Shown here in pieces: positions 48,476 to 49,430 of a stretch of DNA of 64,000 nt. The stretch comes from Fuerstiella sp. (lineage in GTDB: Bacteria > Planctomycetota > Planctomycetia > Planctomycetales > Planctomycetaceae). Both the position numbers and the translations under genes were made by a program. The notes beneath the pieces are model-generated. The model made no database searches. It saw only the letters and a list, made by a program, of their open reading frames with translations, and had not been told where the DNA came from. The first letter of the stretch is position 1. Each line of letters begins with the position of its first letter. The stretch covers positions 310,001-374,000 of the forward strand of contig JAKVAZ010000006.1 in assembly GCA_022447225.1 (NCBI GenBank). Direction: 5' to 3'.

Positions 48476-48997
48476 TTCAATTTCTTCTGTTTCTTGCCCT
48501 GCGGTGCAGGGTTTTCTGCAGCCTGTCACCGGTGACTGTAATCGGCAACCATTGCCTCGCGTCAAAAGCAGTCGAAATACCGGTCTTCCACACGAGACAA
48601 CCATTCAGGCATCAACGTCTACTGATATTCTGAAGGTGATTCCCTCTCCTCTCCGTTTTGACTGCCGGACTTGACGCTCAGGTTACTTCCGACAGGCCAA
48701 TCATCAGGTTCCTCAGACAGAATCGATGACGTTTGTAGTGAACAAATTCATCGGCACCGTTCGTATTTTCCGCAATCGCGAAGTGATCTTGCATGTCGAA
48801 CGATGAAAGCGGAAAATGTCGGCCACCAGCCACTCCAGGGAGCGAAATCGCCATTAGTCCGTGGATCGATCGTGCGGCGACAAAACTCTCACTTTCTGTG
48901 AAAATGATTGCAGCAAGGCGTACTGACAAACGATACAGTTGTGTTTGCAGGCGGTAAGAAGTACCAACTCTTCTTTTTTCCTTCCAGGAGGTTTTTA
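48476..48997. other. Spacer before the HMA lipoprotein gene
   Basis: 522 bases with the operon terminator at its left end (48497-48516) and the ribosome-binding site of the next gene at its right end. A leftward open frame of 83 codons is not convincing. No other structure seen. Confidence 0.4.
48497..48516 (+). terminator. Rho-independent terminator of the transport operon
   Basis: CCCTGC and GCAGGG form a perfect 6-bp stem with a three-base loop, followed by TTTTCT, 21 bases after the symporter stop. Confidence 0.8.
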
Positions 48998-49369
48998 ATG
49001 CGTTCGACGACGGTTGCTATGGCGTTGGCTGTGTTTGCACTGATTGGTTGCGGCGACAGTGCCGACAATCCAGCAAGTGCTGACCACAATGCCGTCAGTC
49101 CAGCGACTGACAACGTTAATCCCTCTGACACTGAGCAAATGACAGAAGGAATACAGTTGGTCACACTCAGATTGCCGGGAATGACCTGAAGGGGCTGCGA
49201 GGCCTCAGTTCGAGGCGCTTTATCCAACGTTGCTGGCTTGACAGAACTGAAGACAGATATTCCGAGTCGTTTTTGCAGTTTCCAGGTCAGTAAAGACTTC
49301 GACTTTAAGGAGAAATTAACCGAACTGGCTGCCAGTAATTCACACATCGAAGGATTCGAAATCCAGTAA
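48998..49369 (+). CDS. HMA-domain lipoprotein with in-frame TGA at the first metal Cys (candidate selenoprotein)
   Basis: 123 residues if TGA at 49187-49189 is read through. AGGAGG stands six bases before the ATG. The start is a lipoprotein signal (VAMALAVFALIGCGDS, lipobox LIGC) and a polar linker. A heavy-metal-associated domain then runs from about residue 53: LVTLRLPGMT, TGA at residue 64, RGC at 65-67, ASVRGALSNVAGLTELKTD, and FDFKEKLTELAAS to the stop TAA. HMA domains have GMTCxxC, so TGA replaces exactly the first metal-binding cysteine, giving UxxC if recoded as selenocysteine. A small hairpin lies 17 bases beyond the TGA, and a strong terminator lies 31 bases after the TAA. Alternatives: a nonsense mutation or sequence error. 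A termination product would be 63 residues without a metal site. Confidence 0.75.
49190..49218 (+). promoter_or_regulatory. Candidate bacterial SECIS hairpin
   Basis: GCCTC (49202-49206) pairs with GAGGC (49212-49216) around loop AGTTC; alternatively CCTC/GAGG with a lower GCG/CGC stem and a bulge. The loop starts 17 bases after the TGA and has G as its second base and GU in the loop, features expected of bacterial SECIS elements that bind SelB. The stem is short, so this is suggestive only. Confidence 0.4.
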
Positions 49370-49400
49370 TTTCGTTTCTCGGCTGAAATATCGACACCCG

Positions 49401-49430
49401 AGGGCACGTGACGACACGTGCCCTTTTGTT
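49401..49430 (+). terminator. Rho-independent terminator of the HMA gene
   Basis: Perfect 10-bp stem AGGGCACGTG / CACGTGCCCT with loop ACGA, followed by TTTGTT. It lies 31 bases after the TAA at 49367-49369, so the mRNA includes the part beyond the in-frame TGA. Confidence 0.93.

Follow-up and report, generated by a model that had tools for sequence, protein, structure and literature searches.

The window, by which we mean the whole stretch of 64,000 nucleotides that was analysed, contains on its forward strand a gene for a 123-residue lipoprotein that is predicted to be a selenoprotein (Table 1). Its frame runs from the lipobox through a low-complexity linker to the motif LPGMT-UGA-RGC, in which the UGA replaces the first Cys of GMTCxxC, the motif of heavy-metal-associated (HMA) domains. 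A plain open reading frame call stops at this UGA, and the functional domain is thereby missed. The in-frame TGA, Cys67 and the final TAA described by an earlier sequence-only reading are all present, and the HMA pattern that it saw in the read-through frame passed the Pfam threshold (HMA, PF00403: 27.0 bits against a gathering value of 24.8, computed with Sec entered as Cys). The same reading had placed a perfect 10-bp terminator behind the gene; a hairpin does stand there, but it scored 11 pairs rather than ten and is unremarkable by count, with one site against a mean of 1.0 in shuffles.

Table 1. Features of the predicted selenoprotein gene, in positions of the window
Feature	Position	Strand	Remark
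Selenoprotein gene (predicted), HMA-domain lipoprotein, 123 residues, Sec at 64	48998..49369	+	ATG 48998, TAA 49367-49369
Ribosome-binding site AGGAGG, 6 nt 5' of the ATG	48986..48991	+	Read off the sequence
Lipobox LIGC, Cys18 the predicted lipidated residue	49040..49051	+	Cys in 25/25 aligned relatives
HMA-type ferredoxin-like domain, residues 52-122	49151..49363	+	Pfam, PDB profiles, low-confidence single-sequence model, Foldseek
Predicted Sec codon (UGA, codon 64), in place of the first Cys of the metal-binding CxxC	49187..49189	+	
Cys67, second position of the UxxC motif	49196..49198	+	Cys in 25/25 aligned relatives
Upper stem-loop of a bacterial SECIS-type element, GCCTC-AGTTC-GAGGC	49202..49216	+	Loop 17 nt past the UGA; criteria of PMC13188914 (available part)
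Cys93	49274..49276	+	In 15/17 group-A relatives
His116, alpha2-beta4 loop, proposed third ligand	49343..49345	+	In 17/17 group-A relatives
Terminator-like hairpin, 11 pairs, T-rich tail	49400..49425	+	

The source genome (5.43 Mb in 33 contigs, 97% complete) was searched for the machinery that decodes UGA as Sec, the absence of which had been named beforehand as grounds against the Sec reading, yet selA, selB, selC and selD were all found. The tRNA-Sec gene lies on contig C8, with 70.8 bits against a gathering value of 47, and ARAGORN calls it SeC with the anticodon tca. On contig C1, selA (418.9 bits), selB (347.7 bits including its in-frame neighbour, cut-off 242) and selD (227.2 bits, cut-off 125) stand together within about 5.3 kb. 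A reading of the UGA as Trp or another standard amino acid, by way of a recoded genome or a suppressor tRNA, has a negligible probability, as two programs identify the UCA-anticodon tRNA that was found as tRNA-Sec, TGA also serves as the stop of nine of the 25 family genes described below, the counterpart residue is Cys, and the motif co-occurs with SelA.

With the protein as query at E 1e-3 or better, 40 of 170 genomes of the order were matched, and an internal in-frame TGA was found within the match of 28 of them and of none of the other 12. The DNA of all 28 was read, and in every case the TGA falls on the CxxC motif, at the first Cys in 27 and at the second in one weakly matched genome (G018); G017, among the 27, carries UPAGU with two TGAs. 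The CxxU variant of G018 lies at locus L053 (2024-2206), where Cys comes first and TGA second in the HMA motif. Five of the 12 TGA-less genomes were also read. Four of them (G003, G004, G007 and G026) have Cys at the motif, and the match in G062 is a resemblance of signal peptide and linker in an unrelated protein, so that the 12 are not all HMA relatives.

SelA, searched in the same 170 genomes at E 1e-20, was detected in 71 of them, comprising all 28 TGA genomes, none of the 12 TGA-less genomes and 43 of the 130 without a match. The contrast of 28/28 with 0/12 gives a Fisher p of 1.8e-10, which ignores relatedness and is therefore optimistic; counted by genus, SelA is present in all 12 genera with TGA and in 20 of the 46 others (Fisher p 2.6e-4). 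Under stricter filters, tRNA-Sec was found in 21 of the 28 TGA genomes and in none of the 12 TGA-less ones. One genome of the window's own genus, G099, has SelA and tRNA-Sec and gave no family match in either the order search or the phylum profile.

An alignment of 25 relatives was built from rows picked for TGA at the motif, by a motif search that required Met before and Cys after the TGA, so its Sec column is invariant by construction. The other invariant columns are Gly17, Cys18, Pro60, Met62, Cys67, Val71, Leu75 and Gly80. The GMT metal loop is retained, with Met in 25 and Thr in 24 of the 25 rows; residues 19-50 form a poorly conserved linker, and the conserved domain surrounds and follows the UGA. 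The nine genes of this alignment whose own stop is TGA, besides the Sec TGA, are L021, L025, L027, L029, L030, L031, L040, L041 and L046. When homologues were aligned, conserved homologous sequence persisted past the TGA, and the Sec column held Cys in genomes without SelA, for example G003 and G004, as well as in a paralogue of G113 and in a CPFGC paralogue of the source genome itself. The latter, a Cys-type lipoprotein, was located at L100 (G000:C10:107357-107746).

That the TGA is an artefact of sequencing, or a Cys codon recently lost to a nonsense mutation, is plausible only when the window is viewed alone, and the probability of this has become vanishingly small, since TGA stands at the motif in 12 genera of the order and the downstream sequence is conserved. 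Since independent genomes carry TGA at this same codon, the mis-sequenced or mutated Cys codon that the sequence-only reading had still allowed for is for practical purposes excluded. The machinery genes are present, the TGA recurs and the sequence beyond it is related in close homologues; none of the three findings that could have overturned the Sec reading came true. That the TGA at 49187-49189 encodes selenocysteine is very well supported by this comparative evidence, which likewise supports the conservation, the machinery and the SECIS-type element.

The region past the TGA bears the mark of purifying selection, as judged from the coding sequences compared. Between the window and a genome of the same genus (G100), the 59 codons past the UGA gave a dN of 0.142 and a dS of 0.408. 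Within genus g48, ten sequences were taken and the 21 of 45 pairs of equal length were compared, of which 19 showed a dN/dS of 0.06-0.26; the remaining two close pairs gave 0.41 and 0.55, at a dS of 0.15 and 0.10, respectively. The g48 pairs differ at 0-1 codons in the first ten after the UGA against 10-31 in the remaining 52-53, and with these first ten codons nearly unchanged, synonymous sites too hardly vary at the position of the hairpin.

The hairpin itself had been described as starting 17 bases after the TGA with the apical loop AGTTC. The loop is indeed present (49207-49211), although it is the loop alone that begins 17 nt after the TGA, and the 5-bp stem GCCTC/GAGGC starts earlier, at 12 nt. 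According to the available part of PMC13188914, the bacterial SECIS model has a loop of 3-9 nt, a stem of 4-16 bp, G within the first two loop positions, a spacing of 16-37 nt and a minimum free energy of at most -7.5 kcal/mol. The window agrees with all of these: its loop AGUUC has 5 nt, the stem 5 bp and the spacing is 17 nt, and the 48 nt from the UGA have an energy of -12.6. For these 48 nt the window shows a folding energy within the ordinary range (z +1.2; the mean z over 40 Sec genes is -1.0); whole-stretch energy is weak evidence for a SECIS element and was replaced by a positional hairpin test and by pair counts.

The hairpin test covered 40 Sec genes, ten of them near-identical genes of g48, and excluded 29 later-read loci together with L053, L078 and L090. 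Under a strict rule, namely a G[GT] loop at 16-24 nt, chosen after the sequences had been seen, stems of at least 4, 5 and 6 bp occurred in 31, 25 and 23 of the 40 Sec genes against 9.6, 3.2 and 1.1 expected from synonymous shuffles, and in 6, 1 and 1 of 26 Cys homologues. Nine of the 40 Sec genes had no hairpin under this rule, and 12 distinct stem-loops of at least 5 bp were counted among the 40. A wider rule (a spacing of 16-37 nt, with G at either of the first two positions of the loop) gave 35, 29 and 25 of 40 Sec genes and 15, 7 and 3 of 26 Cys homologues for the same stem lengths, a smaller contrast. The lone 7-bp hairpin among the Cys homologues belongs to G344 (L071), which has TGT where its congeners G472 (L085) and G303 (L092) have TGA, with the same hairpin, and with SelA and tRNA-Sec present in the genome. 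Judged from these sequences, G344 compared with G303 and G472 appears to be a Sec/Cys exchange caught early.

Pairing was also counted over six pairs in 17 sequences of the window's subfamily (group A), 13 of them distinct. The cells of these pairs were 97.4% paired, the covariation score was 0.359, and 11 cells were changed on both sides against a shuffle mean of 4.1; each of these values was reached by none of 500 shuffles. Two pairs vary on both sides, one from U-A to C-G and G-C and the other from G-C to U-A and U-G. The number of pairs changed on both sides (two) and that of further pair types (four) were not above the shuffles, being reached by 313 and 176 of 500, respectively. The outermost of the six pairs is missing in the window and in G100, and RNAalifold independently predicts the same stem.

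As for the domain that follows the linker, PDB profiles matched chains of Cu-ATPase and MerP. A single-sequence model, which is weak (pLDDT 64.6), gives the order beta-alpha-beta-beta-alpha-beta over residues 52-122, and Foldseek places Atx1 (3k7r) and MerP (1afi) as its top two hits, followed by aspartokinase ACT domains among others. With VIA-align the top rows were other ferredoxin-like folds (Z 7.8-9.0), and no HMA protein was among the 50 rows. The assignment to HMA is one made by sequence profiles. In group A, Asn114 and His116 are found in 17 of 17 rows, and the eight rows of groups B and C have neither His nor Cys at the His116 and Cys93 columns. The same low-confidence model places His116 between helix 2 and strand 4. 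His61 of Atx1 presumably aligns with His116 and sits near the metal. In the zinc form of cyanobacterial Atx1, this His61 is seen at the interface of the dimer (PMC3763678, available part). Because His116 is invariant in group A and comparable with His61 of Atx1, a soft-metal site of Sec, Cys and His is suggested for this group by analogy.

On these grounds we consider it highly probable that the gene encodes a selenoprotein, with UGA decoded as Sec. As our best guess, the product would be a chaperone or a sink anchored in a membrane and would handle a soft metal, possibly Cu(I). SelB and tRNA-Sec would decode the UGA at codon 64, aided by the hairpin directly 3' of it, and the product would be exported, cleaved and lipidated at Cys18. 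The linker of about 35 residues may then act as a membrane tether with the HMA domain at its end, where Sec64 and Cys67 would make up the loop that binds the metal. For group A, a third ligand may come from the invariant His located between alpha2 and beta4. The bound metal would most likely be soft and thiophilic, with Cu(I) the leading candidate and Hg(II) or Ag(I) as alternatives, and the role that of an extracytoplasmic chaperone or sink. Lipidation, metal binding, the identity of the metal and the partner are what we infer here.

Partial termination occurs at Sec codons, and a truncated form would keep the lipobox. The gene could accordingly be imagined as a selenium-sensitive switch, in which some ribosomes stop at residue 63, short of the metal loop, and full-length protein appears only under ample selenium. 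However, with residues 19-50 poorly conserved and the conserved domain lying around and after the UGA, such truncation would be a side effect rather than a function, and we regard the switch as improbable.

To examine the breadth of the family, a profile of the 25-row alignment was run over 392 genomes of the phylum at E 1e-6, and 201 of them were matched. The fetched loci were read together with 31 further loci of the listed TGA matches; in two of these 31 (G346 and G258) the TGA is merely the stop. Among the matches listed, a Sec motif was confirmed in at least 39 sampled genomes from 16 families. SelA was detected in 38 of these 39, and in 246 of the 392 overall; the remaining Sec-motif genome, G420, gave no SelA match but has tRNA-Sec. 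The Sec motifs found across the phylum are UxxC, UxxxC, UxxU and UxxxU. Outside the order, a lipobox-like pattern stands upstream in 37 of 44 Sec frames and not in the other seven, which include a MerT-like protein of G457. At five loci of family f27 (L070, L081, L082, L086 and L091), the gene of a lipoprotein with the motif DUGQU, which has two in-frame TGAs, immediately precedes that of a second HMA protein, whose motifs are CDGC, CTHC, CDGC, CGNC and UENC, respectively. Of a different build is L103 (G170), where a MerT-like protein ends in an HMA domain carrying UPQSC and lies beside a frame with an ATUMAU motif.

Taken more broadly, the family might belong to a large superfamily of Sec-HMA proteins, lipoproteins for the most part, that act outside the cytoplasm. 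Their metal loops would have one or two Sec residues (UxxC, UxxxC, UxxU, UxxxU or CxxU), one lineage would have a tandem pair, and together they would amount to a selenium-based relay for soft metals at the cell surface; in it, the window's subfamily would use a Sec/Cys/His site, and Sec would be a ligand for trafficking and not a catalytic redox residue. We put this forward as a tentative reading, possible but less likely than not. Somewhat doubtful, in our opinion, is a redox selenoprotein, in which UxxC would cycle as a selenenylsulfide on the HMA scaffold, in thiol-disulfide exchange or in the reduction of peroxide or metal, with metal binding secondary. Many uncharacterised selenoproteins resemble thiol oxidoreductases or carry UxxC or CxxU, and the majority are probably redox proteins (PMC13188914, available part); the UxxU and UxxxU relatives fit such a role as well. 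On the other hand, the domain is HMA, the Met and Thr of the GMT loop are retained, and no redox gene is a constant neighbour at the 17 loci compared.

Sec in HMA-type proteins is already known, from NF041115, NF045683, MerP and a cation ATPase. NF041115 (UxxU_metal_bind) is alike in having an HMA-like loop with Sec for Cys, and it matches all 25 aligned members at E 1e-3; Table 1 of PMC13188914, a source available in part, lists it as 'Metal-binding protein (putative mercuric reductase)' with UxxU. As a member of this model, the window protein was rejected, with 24.5 bits against a cut-off of 95 and one Sec instead of two. The HMA-type part of NF045683, a MerT/CopZ fusion-like heavy metal transport selenoprotein, is weakly matched by the window protein; membership was again rejected, at 15.9 bits against a cut-off of 375, with a match that covers positions 157-200 of 235, and the MerT-like part belongs to NF045683 alone. 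MerP (TIGR02052) is likewise a small extracytoplasmic HMA protein, from which the window protein differs by its predicted lipid anchor and long linker; here the score was 27.8 bits against a cut-off of 92.55, no mer genes were found among the four neighbours scanned, and membership was not accepted. A Sec-containing 'Mercuric transport protein MerP' and a cation ATPase appear in the available part of an ocean metagenome list (PMC2398784), and the Table 1 mentioned above also gives a 'Cation-transporting ATPase E1-E2' selenoprotein with UxxC. The latter shares UxxC in a metal-transport protein, but is a P-type ATPase, as opposed to the stand-alone 123-residue lipoprotein described here. With Atx1-like copper chaperones the HMA profile and the His column fit; the model is of low confidence, and VIA-align is not decisive. 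Cyanobacterial Atx1 (ScAtx1) is, unlike the window protein, cytosolic, with CxxC, no Sec and no lipid anchor.

In sum of the models, the window protein lies below the cut-offs of all NCBIfam models that it matched. Ten further Sec proteins that were scanned were above none of the NCBIfam cut-offs, and the two of them with DUGQU matched no NCBIfam model at 1e-5. Nor is an HMA lipoprotein among the 119 families and subfamilies tabulated in a 2026 review (PMC13188914), and the word lipoprotein is absent from the paper, as far as its available part goes. No description of this lipoprotein family was found in the literature on selenoproteins, in the parts accessible and leaving aside supplementary listings (e.g. 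S9 of PMC4807772, on planctomycete selenoproteins). From sequence comparison, this points to a so far uncatalogued family of Sec-bearing HMA lipoproteins resembling copper chaperones.

The gene neighbourhoods were compared at 17 loci, and no neighbour was common to all when a conserved operon partner was sought. In the window, the neighbours are an NMT1_3 receptor, DctM, an SSF symporter and an M19 dipeptidase, with no metal genes, and this arrangement recurs only in G100 among the 17. Of the ten g48 genomes with a family gene, seven have an SBP56 gene. In six of these (G104, G105, G110, G111, G112 and G113) it follows the family gene at a distance of 0.4-1.0 kb on the same strand, and in G106 the two genes are on different contigs. 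The SBP56 reading frame of G112 has a Pfam match. Loci with SBP56 downstream include L056, L057 and L058, and the contigs concerned G105:C492, G111:C66 and G113:C453. SBP56 was found in 11 of the 170 genomes, and each of the 11 has SelA, which overall is present in 71. In Hyphomicrobium, SBP56 is a methanethiol oxidase that depends on Cu and has a predicted periplasmic location, and in many bacteria its gene is found clustered with one for a putative copper chaperone (PMC5739008, available part). The adjacency of SBP56 hints at copper for genus g48 only; the hint is inapplicable to the window itself because its source genome has no SBP56, and an SBP56 link for the window protein was dropped. 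Elsewhere, ArsA and a low-molecular-weight phosphatase-type gene lie near the family gene of G059, and CbiQ lies upstream in G049.

Across the phylum, ordinary calling of open reading frames would likewise truncate Sec-HMA genes, in at least 39 of the genomes sampled. Should Sec prove to be a metal ligand, the 123-residue protein would be a tractable system for comparing selenium with sulfur in metal trafficking, with the natural Cys homologues as controls, including that of G344, which has TGT and has kept the hairpin. The contig search also gave one locus in a Paenibacillus stretch.
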